A stretch of 64,000 bases of DNA from Gemmatimonadota bacterium (GCA_040388625.1 JAZKBK010000002.1:124001-188000), one strand, 5' to 3'. Shown: positions 17,504 through 23,234, numbered from the stretch's first letter. Made by a program: numbers and translations. Notes: generated by a model from the letters alone, not told the origin.

Positions 17504-18454
17504 TTACGGCAATACTACATCGACACCGCTGATCGTCTTGCCCGATATCACTGTCACCGCCGGAACGAGCGCGGGATGGTTCAACGAGCCAGTCGGCGGT
17601 GTCGCGCGTACCGCGTAGGTTCCAGGCTGCAGCCACATCGCCGAGTACACACCGTTCGCGTCGGAGGTGGTCGTCGCAACTACGTTGGCCGACACCGTAT
17701 CCGTGAGCGCGGTTCCCGCCTTGAGAATCTCCACGGACGCATGCGCGGCAGGCGTTCCAGTAGCCGTCGAGTCGTGAATCGTTCCGGAGATTCCACCGGT
17801 CTCCTCAACTGCAGTCGCGTGAATCACCGGCTTGAAGATCAGACCGTTCTTGCCGATGCTCCGGCCGCGCATGACGAAGCTGCGGCCCAGATCGAAGTCG
17901 ATGAGCATCTGCGACTTGCCGCTCACAACAGTGAACGGCCGCGTAAGATCGATCTTGATCCCGCTCCGTCCGGCGCCCGGGAATTTGATTCCACCGTTCG
18001 CGCCCGTCAGAACCGATCCGTTCTTGAGAGTTATCGAGGACTTGTCGACGTCGAGCACGAGCCGGAAGCCGCGATACGTTCCCGTTGGCAACGTCGGCTG
18101 TGCAAGATTGACCGACTTCCCGCCCTGCAGATCGAGAAGATTGAAGGTCTGGTTTGGCGTTGCGAGTGTTACCCAACCGTGCGATGGATCGGTGTTGGAG
18201 TGGGAGTCATCATCCTTCCCGCTGTCCGCATCCACCGAGTCCACATCGGCAATCCTGCCATCGATCCGCACGACGAACAGATCCGCGCGTGCCACTGAAT
18301 CAAAGGGGAATGGAGCATCGGTCAGTGCAATGGAAACCGAGCCGGACGTGGATGGCGACATGCCACTGTCCGAACCGGAGCTGCACGCTGCAAGAGCTGT
18401 AGTAGCACACAACGCGAGTGCGACGACAGAGTGGGAAGTAATGGGACGACTCAT
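17504..18454 (-). CDS. DUF4382 lipoprotein
   Basis: ATG at 18454 (MSRPITSH) gives 316 residues with signal and lipobox (ALAAC); a further upstream in-frame start has no signal. The DUF4382 domain follows from SVSIALTDAPFPFDSV to the region around VIHATAVEE and includes an acidic serine/aspartate stretch (VDADSGKDDDSHSN). A C-terminal carboxypeptidase-regulatory-like beta domain (GISGTIHD to TYAVRATPP) resembles those in cell-surface proteins. It is a surface or periplasmic lipoprotein of unknown role, last in a minus-strand cluster downstream of an ECF sigma factor. Confidence 0.85.
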   Translation of the reverse strand: MSRPITSHSVVALALCATTALAACSSGSDSGMSPSTSGSVSIALTDAPFPFDSVARADLFVVRIDGRIADVDSVDADSGKDDDSHSNTDPSHGWVTLATPNQTFNLLDLQGGKSVNLAQPTLPTGTYRGFRLVLDVDKSSITLKNGSVLTGANGGIKFPGAGRSGIKIDLTRPFTVVSGKSQMLIDFDLGRSFVMRGRSIGKNGLIFKPVIHATAVEETGGISGTIHDSTATGTPAAHASVEILKAGTALTDTVSANVVATTTSDANGVYSAMWLQPGTYAVRATPPTGSLNHPALVPAVTVISGKTISGVDVVLP

Positions 18455-18534
18455 AGATTCTTTGCTCCAGAAAGGTTGAAAGTTTTCGCAAAAGCCCGCG
18501 CGAGCGCGACGATCAGCGCCCGTTCCTGCCATCA

Positions 18535-19290
18535 TCACGGACGACCCTTGCCAGTCGTCGGCGGTTTACCGTGCGCCGCGCCGCTCTCTCGTCCGTGAGT
18601 ACCTGCATTACCGGGAACGCCCGCAGGCGGCCCATGCGCAGCAGCGCCGGTTTCTGCCTCGCCCCCGCGACCGCCGCGAACACCATTCCCGCGGCCCTCG
18701 TTCGAGTGATTCTCCGACGCTACGCCATTATCGCGTCCGGACGACTCGATGTCCGCGTCGGATGCGCGCGCCGCGAGCTTGCTCTGAACTCGCTGCAACG
18801 CCTGATCGGACGGCAGGCCGCGACTCACCAGGCTTCCAATTACATACAGCGGTACAGCAAGAGAGCGTCCACTCGGCGCACTCCGCGCGAGTCTGGAAAC
18901 GTCGGGACCGCTGACGCCTTCACGCAAAGCCTCGGCGCCAGCCTCGATCTCGTCACCGGTGGGTTGAGCACTGCGTGCTGCCCGGAGTGCTTCTCTCGCC
19001 GCACGCATACGGGCAAGCTGTTCGTCCGCTGCACGTGCAATGTCCGGTGCCGCAACGCCGCGCGCCGCAAATTTGAGCGACCGGTTCAACACTGCGTCGG
19101 ATGGCAGATTGTCCGAGCGCGCATCGCTGATCACTGCCAGCACGTGCTGGGCGACATTCGCCGGCAGCACAGCCGAAAGTCGCGCTGACGGGTCAACCGC
19201 GCTGCTCTGTGCGGTCGCGATTGCAGAGCTCGCAAGAAACACGAGTGCAATGATGCTGTTGCTCACCGTCGTGATTGAACGCATTCTCAT
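18535..19290 (-). CDS. Exported hypothetical protein with internal repeats and Gly-rich tail
   Basis: ATG at 19290 gives about 251 residues with a signal peptide (ending near SAIATAQ); the upstream in-frame extension to 19368 lacks signal character. Two related helical blocks occur: NLPSDAVLNRSLKFAARGV with PDIARA, and GLPSDQALQRVQSKLAARAS with DADI. This suggests a duplicated module. The last 70 residues are low-complexity and rich in Gly, Ala, His and Arg, probably disordered. No family is recognised. It lies 80 bp before the DUF4382 lipoprotein gene. Confidence 0.72.
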   Translation of the reverse strand: MRMRSITTVSNSIIALVFLASSAIATAQSSAVDPSARLSAVLPANVAQHVLAVISDARSDNLPSDAVLNRSLKFAARGVAAPDIARAADEQLARMRAAREALRAARSAQPTGDEIEAGAEALREGVSGPDVSRLARSAPSGRSLAVPLYVIGSLVSRGLPSDQALQRVQSKLAARASDADIESSGRDNGVASENHSNEGRGNGVRGGRGGEAETGAAAHGPPAGVPGNAGTHGRESGAAHGKPPTTGKGRP

Positions 19291-19451
19291 CGCATGACTC
19301 TTGGGAAACAGGAGCGTTGGCCCATCAGCTGATGAAGCACTCTGCCTCGCGCTGATATGGACCTTCACCGGTTAGACTGCACGCTGACCCGGTCCGGTCA
19401 CATCCGAATTGCAACGAAAGTGTGACGCGCAGCATGACGTGATCGAAGTGC

Positions 19452-20597
19452 TCATGGTACAATCAGAACGGCAGCCAGTCCGCCGAATTCGTCCGTCACG
19501 GTCGTCAGCGACGGCGGCGGAAGCCACTTGCCACCGTCCACACGGACATTCATCTGATAGATGCCCGGTGAGAGAGGCGTCTCGAACGAATACCAGCCAT
19601 CGGCTCCGCGACTCAACGTGCGCGGCGCCCAGCCGGTGAAATCGCCGTTCACTTCCACGGTGCGACCCCCCGGTACCCGGAGCCGGAGGATCCGTCGCCC
19701 GCCGGCGCCGGCTGCCAACTGGAGCTCGGCTACACCGGCTGCCGTCGCGACAGGTTCGAGCTTCGCCATCAGCGGAACCTGTCGCGCGCTGCGCGTCAGG
19801 GAAATGCGCACGCCTGCCGATACGAATCGCCCGCCGGGAAACCCCTGCGTGTAATCCACCGGGTACGTACCGGCGCTGGCCAGCAATGCGACGCGCGGCA
19901 ACAGCCATGCGACTGCACTGACACTGCCCCACGCACGAGCCCCCGTGCCGAGCGCCGGGAGATGCGAGCCCGCACGCGTAACGGCGACCGCTCCCAGATC
20001 GAGCATGCCAACTCGCCACTGTCCTTCCGCGGTCATGTCCGTGTAGCGAATGGAATCGTCAACGGCGGTCGGTTGAACGGTAAGCGTCGCGTCAACCGGT
20101 CCATTCGCATACCAGAGGCCCGCCTCGCCCTCGCGCACGCTGCGCCAGCGCGAACCGTCCGAGGTCGCACCGCCGCCCGCGCCAATCCAGGCACCGAGGC
20201 CCGTCGCGTCCAGATGCAGGCGAGCCATTCCGATCGCGGCACCGGTCCGGTCCCCGTTCTGATGCGCGCTCCCTCCCAACGTCGCTGCCAGCTCGCCCGA
20301 GAATGCGCCAGCCGCCGGCGTGAACGCCGATGCGCCGACGGAGCCATTGGCACTCCAGGCTCGGGCCAGCTGCGCAAAGGTCCCCGACGCGGCCACGATG
20401 GCGTTATCCCAACCAGCCCGGAACGATGGAGAGAGTCCGGTTGCGGTTGCATTCAGGGAATCGGCGTACCGAAGTTGGGTCTCCTGCACGTCGAGCGAGG
20501 AGACAACCCGTTGAGCCGTCGCCACTGCGGGAACACTCGATCCAGCTGCCAATCCGGCGATGAGAAGAATGCACCAACTGACGCGCCCGGACGCCAT
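19452..20597 (-). CDS. Exported protein with C-terminal CBM48/AMPK-beta-like domain
   Basis: ATG at 20597 gives 381 residues with a signal peptide (GLAAGSSVPAVATAQ). The middle (about 30-280) alternates short hydrophobic strands and reads like an outer-membrane or beta-rich domain. The C-terminal 75 residues are an early-set glycogen-binding-like domain, with VEVNGDFTGWAPRTLSR, GWYSFETPLSPGIYQMNVRV and DGGKWLPPP keeping the tryptophans that contact glucan in the AMPK-beta family. It lies 58 bp after a membrane regulator carrying the same type of domain. The ligand is inferred only. Confidence 0.8.
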   Translation of the reverse strand: MASGRVSWCILLIAGLAAGSSVPAVATAQRVVSSLDVQETQLRYADSLNATATGLSPSFRAGWDNAIVAASGTFAQLARAWSANGSVGASAFTPAAGAFSGELAATLGGSAHQNGDRTGAAIGMARLHLDATGLGAWIGAGGGATSDGSRWRSVREGEAGLWYANGPVDATLTVQPTAVDDSIRYTDMTAEGQWRVGMLDLGAVAVTRAGSHLPALGTGARAWGSVSAVAWLLPRVALLASAGTYPVDYTQGFPGGRFVSAGVRISLTRSARQVPLMAKLEPVATAAGVAELQLAAGAGGRRILRLRVPGGRTVEVNGDFTGWAPRTLSRGADGWYSFETPLSPGIYQMNVRVDGGKWLPPPSLTTVTDEFGGLAAVLIVP

Positions 20598-20655
20598 ATG
20601 GGAGTTCTTGATAATTGTCGCTATGATCACGCTGTACTGGCGCTATTCTGGCCTA

Positions 20656-21336
20656 TCAATCGCTTCCTACAGTTACAACCGAGCTCGGGGTGTCGAAATC
20701 GTCAGCCAGGCGTTCCGACGAAGGATCAGCAACCCAGTGCTTGCCGTCGACCACGAAGGCATACTCGTGCCGCCCTGCGGGGAGTGCCACCTGAGCGCTC
20801 CAGACGCCGGGCTTGACCGCGACCAACGGAGTCGCCCGTCGCGCCCACGCGTTGAAGTCGCCCACGAGACTTACCGTCTGCGCCCGGGCATCCGTGAGAA
20901 CGAATCGTACCACGTAAACGGTGTCGTGGGACGGTGACGCCACAGCCTGACGGGTGGTCTGGGCCATAACACCATTGGTACCCTCAGGCGACCGCTGCAC
21001 CCTCTCGCCAGTCCGGGCTACCGCGAGCGTCCCGAGACTGACAAGCGCTGCAAAACCTGCGGCGAGAGCTCCCCAGCCGGCTGGTGGAAGCGTGACGGAA
21101 CGCCGTCGGCGCCACGCCGTAATCCCGGCCGCGCGCGGCTGGAGTCGGAGCACCGCGGCTGCACTGGGCGCTGTTTGCGGGCTCTGCGAGGTTTGAACGG
21201 CTGCTCTGACACGCTCTTCAAAACCGGGCCGTGGGCTCTCCGCCGTGCGCAGAATGGACCCCAGCTGGCGTGCAAAATCCGCATCCTCGCGGCCTGGCTC
21301 ATCGCCTTCGTGTTCCATATCAGAATGGATTTTCAC
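20656..21336 (-). CDS. Probable anti-sigma factor with periplasmic CBM48-like sensor domain
   Basis: GTG at 21336 overlaps the sigma-factor stop (GTGA), a classic sigma/anti-sigma junction. The 226 residues comprise a cytosolic N-terminus (1-80, acidic then basic), one membrane helix (about 87-107, WGALAAGFAALVSLGTLAVA) and an external domain. That domain is an early-set CBM48/AMPK-beta-like fold: VSLVGDFNAW, GVWSAQVALPAGRHEYAFVV and DGKHWVADP. No zinc anti-sigma HxxxCxxC motif is visible. A regulator that senses glucan-like polymer outside the membrane is an inference from topology and domain. Confidence 0.78.
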   Translation of the reverse strand: MKIHSDMEHEGDEPGREDADFARQLGSILRTAESPRPGFEERVRAAVQTSQSPQTAPSAAAVLRLQPRAAGITAWRRRRSVTLPPAGWGALAAGFAALVSLGTLAVARTGERVQRSPEGTNGVMAQTTRQAVASPSHDTVYVVRFVLTDARAQTVSLVGDFNAWARRATPLVAVKPGVWSAQVALPAGRHEYAFVVDGKHWVADPSSERLADDFDTPSSVVTVGSD

Positions 21337-21872
21337 CGCACCACTCCCTCGAGCAATTCCCGAAGTCGCTCACAACCTCGTTTTGCTCGCATTTTGAGCG
21401 CCGAGACACCGACGCCGGTGATTTCCGCTATTTCTTCGTAACCGAGCTCTTCGACGTACCTGAGTACAAATACCTCGCGCTGCTCGGGAACGAGTTGCGC
21501 GAGGGCGTATTCGATCTCCTCACCAATCGCCGAGTCTTCGCGCGAAGCAGGATCGATGAGGTCTGGAGCCACATCCACGAAATGCCGGTCGCGACGTGCC
21601 GTACGAGTAGCTCGCGTACGGCATTCGTTTACCAGAATCTGATACAGCCATGCCCCGAACCTGTCTCTATTTCGGCACGTTGCGAGCGCACGGAAGGCGC
21701 GGACAAATGCGTCCTGTAGAGCTTCTTCCGCGTCGTCCCGGTTTGCAAGCATTCGCAGCGCAAAGCGGAAGCACAGGTCCCGATACCGCCGAACCAGGAT
21801 CGTGAACGCGTCGAGATCACCGTCCACGACCGAGGCGATGAGATCCGCGTCTGGGGGAACCACCACTTCCAT
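21333..21872 (-). CDS. ECF-type RNA polymerase sigma factor
   Basis: ATG at 21872 (MEVVVPP) gives 179 residues; a GTG at 21896 adds eight. Region 2 is DLIASVVDGDLDAFTILVRR through DDAEEALQDAFVRAFRAL. Region 4 is LVPEQREVFVLRYVEELGYEEIAE with SALKMRAKRGCERLRELL, the helix-turn-helix for the -35 element. The length and absence of regions 1 and 3 are typical of extracytoplasmic-function sigma factors. Its stop overlaps the start of a membrane protein that is presumably its anti-sigma factor. Confidence 0.92.
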   Translation of the reverse strand: MEVVVPPDADLIASVVDGDLDAFTILVRRYRDLCFRFALRMLANRDDAEEALQDAFVRAFRALATCRNRDRFGAWLYQILVNECRTRATRTARRDRHFVDVAPDLIDPASREDSAIGEEIEYALAQLVPEQREVFVLRYVEELGYEEIAEITGVGVSALKMRAKRGCERLRELLEGVVR

Positions 21873-21992
21873 GCTATATAGACTAGGTCCGCGCACCGCC
21901 GGTCACACCTGATGCGCCGGTTATTCGCGGACAGCCGCCATGTTCAATCTGAGGCCCGATCGAGAGCAGTCCGAACAATCCGAACAGTCCCC

Positions 21993-23234
21993 ATGATCGC
22001 ATCGATTCAAGCACTTATTACGGTTCTCCTTGCAGCTGGCACGGCCTTACCCGTGGCTGCCGCAGCGCAAACGGCGCCGTCTCCGACGATGGCCGCCGGC
22101 CTCGCGACCGCGGATTCGCTGGTCCAGGCGGCGGTCGCGAGCAATCTCATCCCCGGCGCCGTGCTCGTAGTCTCGCGCAACGGCAAGGTGTTGCAGAACC
22201 GTGCGTTCGGATACGCCGAGCTGTATGACTTCAAGCTGCATCGGCTGGCGCATCCCCGCCCGATGCATACCACCACGATGTTCGATCTCGCGTCGGTGAC
22301 GAAGGTGATGGCAACGACGTTCGCGGTGATGATGCTCGTCGATCGCGGACAGGTGAACGTGGATGCGCCGGTTTACACGTACCTGCCGGACTTCCGCGGG
22401 CCGCATCTCGACAGCATCACCGTTCGCAATCTGCTCACACACTCCGCGGGCCTCGTACAGTGGCAACCGCTGTATTACCAAGCCTCCAACGAGCACGAGA
22501 CGTACGACGTCATACGCAGGATGCCGCTGCAGTGGGGCGTTGGCGAAGGTCGCCATTACAGCGATCTCGGCTTCATGCTGCTTGGCTACATCGTCGAGCA
22601 TGTGAGCGGCGAGCCACTCGACGTATTCGTGCAGAAGGAACTGTATCAGCCACTCGGACTCAAGTCGATAACATTCCTTCCGAAGAAGCACGGCTTCACC
22701 GACTTCGCTGCCACGGAACAGGGAAATGGCTACGAGAAGCACATGGTGTACGACTCGACTTTCGGATATCGGTATCGTGGCGATCCGACCGCGTGGAACG
22801 GCTGGAGACAGTACGTACTGAACGGAGAGACCAACGACGGCAATTCGTGGTACGCTAACGGCGGAATCGCGGGACATGCGGGGTTGTTCGCGACAGGCGC
22901 GGATCTGCACGTGTTACTGGATCTGCTGAACAATCGCGGATCATACGGCGGCCATCAGTACATCCGGCCTTCCGTAGTCGATTCATTTCTCACCGTCGAC
23001 CGGTTTCAGAACTACCTCGGCTGGATGAAACCACCGAATACACCGGACGGCAGCTACATGCACAACGGATTCACGGGGACGTACGTGATCGGTGTGCCGA
23101 AGGCTGGCTTGTCGATCGTGCTGCTGACGAACAAGCAGAACGTCGGCACGAACAGCCGCGGATACTTCTCCGATGTGAAGCCGCTGGATGAAGGCGTGAC
23201 GAGGGTGTTGGTGAATGCAGCGATGGGAAAGTAA
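21993..23234 (+). CDS. Beta-lactamase-fold serine hydrolase (PBP4/class C-like), exported
   Basis: ATG at 21993 gives a signal peptide (MIASIQALITVLLAAGTALP to AAAQ); an in-frame start at 21912 lacks it. About 413 residues. The active-site SxxK is LASVTKVM, the YxN-like motif reads HYSDLGFM and the third motif reads HNGFTGT instead of KTG. LLTHSAGL and LYQPLGLKSI are typical of this family. Members hydrolyse or transfer D-amino-acid peptides, esters or beta-lactams; the specificity here is unknown. It is divergent from the sigma-factor gene. Confidence 0.88.
   Translation: MIASIQALITVLLAAGTALPVAAAAQTAPSPTMAAGLATADSLVQAAVASNLIPGAVLVVSRNGKVLQNRAFGYAELYDFKLHRLAHPRPMHTTTMFDLASVTKVMATTFAVMMLVDRGQVNVDAPVYTYLPDFRGPHLDSITVRNLLTHSAGLVQWQPLYYQASNEHETYDVIRRMPLQWGVGEGRHYSDLGFMLLGYIVEHVSGEPLDVFVQKELYQPLGLKSITFLPKKHGFTDFAATEQGNGYEKHMVYDSTFGYRYRGDPTAWNGWRQYVLNGETNDGNSWYANGGIAGHAGLFATGADLHVLLDLLNNRGSYGGHQYIRPSVVDSFLTVDRFQNYLGWMKPPNTPDGSYMHNGFTGTYVIGVPKAGLSIVLLTNKQNVGTNSRGYFSDVKPLDEGVTRVLVNAAMGK

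Follow-up and report, generated by a model that had tools for sequence, protein, structure and literature searches.

A conserved sigma factor cassette with two CBM48-type envelope proteins in Gemmatimonadota: a candidate trans-envelope signalling circuit

In a 64,000-nucleotide stretch of a Gemmatimonadota genome (GCA_040388625.1, JAZKBK010000002.1:124001-188000; hereafter the window, with positions counted from its first letter), the gene of an extracytoplasmic function (ECF) sigma factor stands beside genes for two proteins with CBM48-type domains, which are known mainly as parts of AMPK and of enzymes acting on glycogen or starch. The locus raises the question of what such domains do next to a sigma factor in the bacterial envelope. 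An earlier note made from the same DNA had read it as a transmembrane system that senses an outside or envelope glucan and controls matching surface proteins. Our analysis supported this interpretation in part: it had missed that the second CBM48 protein is a predicted outer-membrane barrel and that an exported protein, called here REP, is a constant member of the set. We propose, with a probability of roughly 0.5, that the cassette encodes a sigma/anti-sigma circuit which spans the envelope, regulates its own expression and parallels the Fec type, with a pair of CBM48 domains in place of the pair of STN domains. The cassette itself is real and conserved, and to our reading it is undescribed in the literature searched, which contained nothing on CBM48 with anti-sigma factors or ECF systems, while the 2021 ECF reclassification might list this pair.

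The five genes reported in the earlier note were all found on the minus strand of the window. The sigma gene (21333–21872; 180 aa, ATG at 21872) encodes sigma-70 regions 2 and 4 only (PF04542, 3e-15; PF08281, 8e-15), and its stop overlaps the start of the following gene by 4 nt, as had been noticed. This second gene (20656–21336) encodes the 226-aa TM-CBM48 protein, composed of an N-terminal part predicted to be cytoplasmic, a transmembrane (TM) helix at about residues 85–105 and an AMPK1_CBM domain at residues 151–224 (1.5e-9; CBM_48, 1e-7, both exceeding the Pfam cut-offs). The next gene (19452–20597) specifies the 381-aa outer-membrane protein (OMP) OMP-CBM48, which has a signal peptide, a predicted barrel (residues 30–266), a linker and a CBM48-type domain at 291–380, where AMPK1_CBM matched above its cut-off close to the C-terminus (7e-7). 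It is followed by the gene of REP (18535–19290; 251 aa), an exported, predicted all-helical protein, and by that of a lipoprotein with the lipobox LAAC (17504–18454). The assignment of the latter to DUF4382 was confirmed (PF14321, 2e-21), and it also matched CarboxypepD_reg (PF13620, 4e-8); this lipoprotein is an accessory component, present in a minority of the cassettes.

The recurrence of the set was surveyed in 200 genomes of the Gemmatimonadota, a phylum of bacteria from soil and water, and 59 loci were read in detail. The 226-aa family is encoded in 119 of the 200 genomes, in 118 of which it is found together with REP, and the neighbourhoods showed a recurrent gene set, so the expectation that sigma/CBM48 neighbours are widespread in this phylum was supported. 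Among the 59 loci, TM-CBM48 was present in 59, the sigma factor and REP in 56 each and the OMP in 55, several of the missing components belonging to loci at contig ends; the commonest gene order was sigma, TM-CBM48, REP, OMP. In the source genome (3.84 Mb), the arrangement is found once more on a different contig, and the four AMPK1_CBM matches of this genome all fall within the two cassettes. Since the gene set also recurs across the phylum, the cassette is not a product of chance. The same genes were detected in records of Rhodothermota, Eisenbacteria, Myxococcales, Proteobacteria and Nitrospirae and in the isolate Salinivenus lutea, with weaker scores for REP. The cassette of the window lacks the first REP, and its REP is of the second type, which accompanies DUF4382 and is 46–54% identical to the REP copies located downstream of the OMP gene in other loci. 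Clustering of the neighbouring open reading frames (ORFs) of the 59 loci gave no further sense family in more than eight loci; the only other large clusters consisted of frames antisense to the cassette genes and of a short antisense frame present in 18 loci. No additional cassette gene emerged beyond local synteny. At four loci in records from Eisenbacteria, Cloacimonadota and KSB1 (L113, L118, L128 and L135), larger proteins contain at least one CBM48-type domain with no sigma gene matched nearby; here the domain is employed in further ways that do not involve glycogen enzymes.

The TM-CBM48 protein is probably a membrane anti-sigma factor, as judged from its sequence and gene position. A TM helix was predicted in 57 of 61 family members, preceded by about 60 residues, and Lys plus Arg amounted to 3.4 per 15 residues before the helix and 1.9 after it. 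The topology derived from hydropathy and charge only is thus that of class I membrane anti-sigma factors, with a single TM helix and a cytoplasmic N-terminus, and the gene is adjacent to that of the sigma factor. The zinc motif Hx3CxxC occurred in none of the 61 members, which excludes a zinc anti-sigma factor and agrees with the previous description of a sigma factor coupled to a membrane regulator without this motif. The motif is optional, as only about half of the membrane-bound class I anti-sigma factors carry it (PMC7406223). Distant syntenic relatives of TM-CBM48 matched the NCBIfam anti-sigma model NF052375 with their cytoplasmic and TM parts (L117, 8e-14; L126, 2e-8), and a relative in a Deltaproteobacteria metagenome-assembled genome (MAG) has the sequence HIKECDEC, conforming to the zinc anti-sigma pattern. 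At L105:4060-4200, in a Deltaproteobacteria MAG, the zinc anti-sigma-like N-terminus of a TM-CBM48 relative is broken by a TAG codon, owing to either a pseudogene or a sequencing error. In L095:6969-8273, a single ORF spans both the sigma and the anti-sigma part; as the last sigma helix looks frameshifted, which may be an assembly error, this apparent fusion was rejected and not used as evidence.

The profile of the TM-CBM48 family also matched solved structures, namely the glycogen-binding domain of AMPK-beta1 (1z0n, 6.6e-13) and a GH13 pullulanase (5ot1, 2.2e-14). Together with the Pfam matches, this identifies the outer domain as a CBM48-type early-set domain, as first suggested, and excludes an unrelated Ig fold. 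In a host with the usual diderm envelope, this domain would be located in the periplasm rather than outside the cell, where it had been placed before.

The partner protein had been described simply as exported. Its CBM48-type domain was confirmed, whereas the remainder was modelled as an outer-membrane barrel: the AlphaFold2 model (mean predicted local distance difference test score, pLDDT, 84.6) comprises 14 strands at residues 30–266, the linker and a beta domain at 291–380. The signal peptide and the even-stranded barrel of this predicted model are porin-like features, and besides one chance match to VbhA, the OMP family matched only AMPK1_CBM, CBM_48 and Porin_4 in Pfam. The barrel resembled CymA (Z 18.6 over 240 residues) and OmpG (Z 17.9) in the structural comparison (VIA); in contrast to these porins, with which it shares 6–8% sequence identity, the OMP has an additional C-terminal CBM48 domain, predicted to be periplasmic. 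Both termini of an even-stranded barrel lie on the same side, normally the periplasmic one, and the two longest inter-strand loops of the model (10–11 residues) are opposite the side of the termini. Therefore, the CBM48 domains of the OMP and of TM-CBM48 are probably both in the periplasm, according to the models, which corrects the idea of glucan binding at the surface and puts the two domains into the same compartment. REP, described previously as a repeat protein, was modelled instead as a domain built of helices only and roughly 160 residues long (high confidence over residues 32–193), and none of 37 members had a Pfam match.

Putative promoters may connect genes of the cassette with the sigma factor. 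The sequence TGTGAC was present in 24 of 54 regions upstream of sigma genes (4.0 in shuffles), as was GTGAC-N15..19-GTC (24 of 54 compared with 1.8). Within 180 nt upstream of genes, strict two-box matches numbered 19 for sigma (0.42 expected) and 10 for REP (0.43 expected), most of the latter in loci with REP behind the OMP gene. The OMP genes, which usually lie inside the operon, gave none (0.41 expected). In the window, the putative autoregulatory promoter P1 (21878–21907, minus strand; TGTGAC-N18-GTCTAT) almost touches the start codon of the sigma gene, its −10 box ending about 5 nt upstream of 21872, and an in-frame GTG (21896) lies inside it. The second putative promoter, P2 (19372–19402, minus strand; TGTGAC-N19-GTCTAA), is an exact match to the pattern and precedes the REP-DUF4382 unit. 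As a rule, only some 4 nt separate the end of the boxes from the start codon, a spacing that points to transcripts with little or no leader. The pattern TGTGACN{18,19}GTCTWW had four matches in the source genome, that is, both sigma promoters, P2 and one other site, while a reversed control pattern had two. The same motif preceding sigma and REP-DUF4382 favours the assumption that the sigma factor controls the downstream genes; of the shared motif looked for upstream of the individual genes, the part concerning sigma and REP-DUF4382 was found, while OMP and DUF4382 had no separate exact match of their own. The fourth match (L184:3243-3273, C4:303742-303772 of the source genome) precedes, at a distance of about 180 nt, a small rsfS-like ORF, identified by eye, which is followed by a large outer-membrane-type protein; it is probably due to chance, or possibly marks a further member of the regulon. 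Divergent from the sigma gene, an exported beta-lactamase-family protein (PF00144) is encoded at 21912–23234 on the plus strand. Only 5 nt lie between the first ATG of its gene and the −35 box of P1, so that its promoter and P1 may overlap.

From the computed gene set, domains, predicted barrel topology and promoter motif with its position, we infer the following circuit. TM-CBM48, as a non-zinc anti-sigma factor, would hold the ECF sigma factor at the inner membrane by its short cytoplasmic N-terminal part and would expose its CBM48 domain, beyond the single TM helix, to the periplasm. The porin-like barrel would present the sibling CBM48 domain in the same compartment on a flexible linker, with REP acting as a periplasmic adaptor. 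A trigger at the barrel, either the entry of a ligand or a change in the level of the barrel or REP, would then make the CBM48 domain of the barrel, or a shared ligand, alter the contact with the anti-sigma CBM48 domain, whether directly between the CBM48 domains or through REP, and the sigma factor would be released, perhaps by proteolysis. Once free, the sigma factor would use the TGTGAC-N18/19-GTCTWW promoters to transcribe both the operon that encodes it and the REP-DUF4382 unit.

Several results weigh against this circuit. The N-terminal part of the TM-CBM48 protein of the window matched no anti-sigma model, and the link to anti-sigma factors runs via the distant relatives and not via the window protein itself. 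The linker between the barrel and its CBM48 domain was modelled with low pLDDT, and the fold search with REP returned nothing with an E value below 0.001. Strict promoter matches precede only about one third of the sigma genes, and a clade of three loci (L057, L061 and L071) has another shared sequence upstream of sigma, GTTACCAA-N-CTCTTTAG, recognized by eye. The mirror-tree correlation of the two CBM48 domains beyond that with sigma (partial r 0.38) was no higher than for other pairs of the operon, and this method was discarded as an uninformative test of a CBM–CBM contact. As for the deviating clade, L050 groups with its members by a similar upstream sequence replacing TGTGAC-GTCT, and in all four loci the OMP gene stands apart from the operon of the sigma gene; between them is a further short ORF that weakly matches the sigma profile (score 64–82).

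The absence of an anti-sigma match in the window protein would also suit the view that TM-CBM48 is not an anti-sigma factor and that the sigma gene has nothing more than its operon in common with the envelope genes. This is very improbable in the light of the topology of TM-CBM48, the anti-sigma matches of its distant relatives and the fact that its gene always adjoins the sigma gene, either overlapping or abutting it. A more serious contender, even if an unlikely one, is a mechanism of outer-membrane homeostasis in which no sugar takes part: the CBM48 domain would be a mere early-set interaction domain, REP or the OMP would occupy the anti-sigma factor, and shortage or misfolding of the barrel would free the sigma factor, thereby restoring the levels of OMP and REP. 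It recalls the sigma-E/RseA/RseB pathway, with its membrane anti-sigma factor devoid of the zinc motif, small periplasmic protein and regulon of outer-membrane proteins; the cassette differs from it by the CBM48 sensor domain and the dedicated OMP. The putative regulon, almost confined to the cassette itself, the constancy of REP as an exported helical partner, the loss of the polar sugar contacts (see below) and the retention of the cassette in genomes without glycogen genes are consistent with such a role, but the searches made with REP gave no match to RseB, either by sequence or by fold, a negative that does not prove the two unrelated, and the stacking tryptophans are conserved, perhaps needlessly for a purely structural domain.

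The same tryptophans are an argument for a glucan sensor, in which the anti-sigma CBM48 domain would bind an alpha-glucan or maltodextrin entering via the OMP and the sigma factor would induce glucan capture proteins. The likeness of the cassette domains to AMPK-beta consists in the domain family and these two residues: the equivalents of W100 and W133 are kept in 117/117 and 101/117 sequences, respectively, including both domains of the window, and are nearly universal in the TM-CBM48 and OMP groups alike. Unlike AMPK-beta, the cassette domains sit in the bacterial envelope and none retains K126 or N150 at the aligned positions, so that two of the four sugar contacts remain. Plant AKINbeta2, in which just these two of the four are present, is nevertheless able to bind starch in vitro (PMC4032982). 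The best structural match of the barrel is a cyclodextrin porin, CymA, although OmpG is nearly as close, and GH13 is commoner in genomes with the cassette (79/119) than in those without (22/81), an association confounded by phylogeny. The source genome has one GH31 but no GH13, glycogen synthase (GT5) or glycogen phosphorylase (GT35), and regulation of glycogen was rejected on this account; moreover, 40 of the 119 cassette genomes lack GH13, and no glycoside hydrolase or other enzyme gene recurs beside the cassette in the 59 loci. A glucan as the signal, as originally supposed, is doubtful on these grounds, and the sensor mechanism as a whole appears unlikely; a glucan is a possible ligand of the CBM48 domains, while a glucan-utilisation system is unlikely.

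The paired-domain circuit that we prefer is closest to the Fec/Fox systems, where STN-like domains, one on the anti-sigma factor and one on the transducer of the outer membrane, touch in the periplasm (PMC11637429). Like FecI-FecR-FecA, the cassette combines an ECF sigma factor, a probable single-pass anti-sigma factor with a periplasmic domain and an outer-membrane barrel, and the partners in the inner and outer membranes bear related periplasmic domains, here of the AMPK1_CBM/CBM48 type. In contrast, its barrel is porin-like and 14-stranded without a match to a plug or a TonB receptor, CBM48 replaces STN, REP is an extra component, and no iron-uptake gene is recurrent nearby. As neither a TonB-dependent receptor nor an STN signalling domain was found, the cassette does not belong to the Fec family. 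In the SigmaI/RsgI systems, by which cellulolytic clostridia sense biomass, a sigma factor and a membrane anti-sigma factor are likewise tied to carbohydrate-binding modules (CBMs), but these are Gram-positive systems with a non-ECF sigma factor and other CBM families, and they control cellulosome enzymes.

Most of the detailed knowledge of how ECF sigma factors relay signals from the outer to the inner membrane comes from TonB-dependent receptors and from the stress pathway of sigma-E. Tentatively, and with somewhat less confidence than for the circuit itself, the cassette may represent an undescribed class of trans-envelope signalling independent of TonB receptors, old within the Gemmatimonadota and shared with several further phyla. 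In this class, paired CBM48 domains would let a porin-like barrel communicate with an anti-sigma factor, aided by REP as a new periplasmic protein family. If this is true, it would be a second design with the same logic built from unrelated parts, and the paired-domain principle would have more than one origin. CBM48 would then have a function in envelope signalling of bacteria, and a first role would be assigned to REP and possibly to DUF4382, both unannotated families. By way of the promoter motif, the regulon can be tested directly, and over half of the genomes sampled from this poorly studied phylum retain the cassette.

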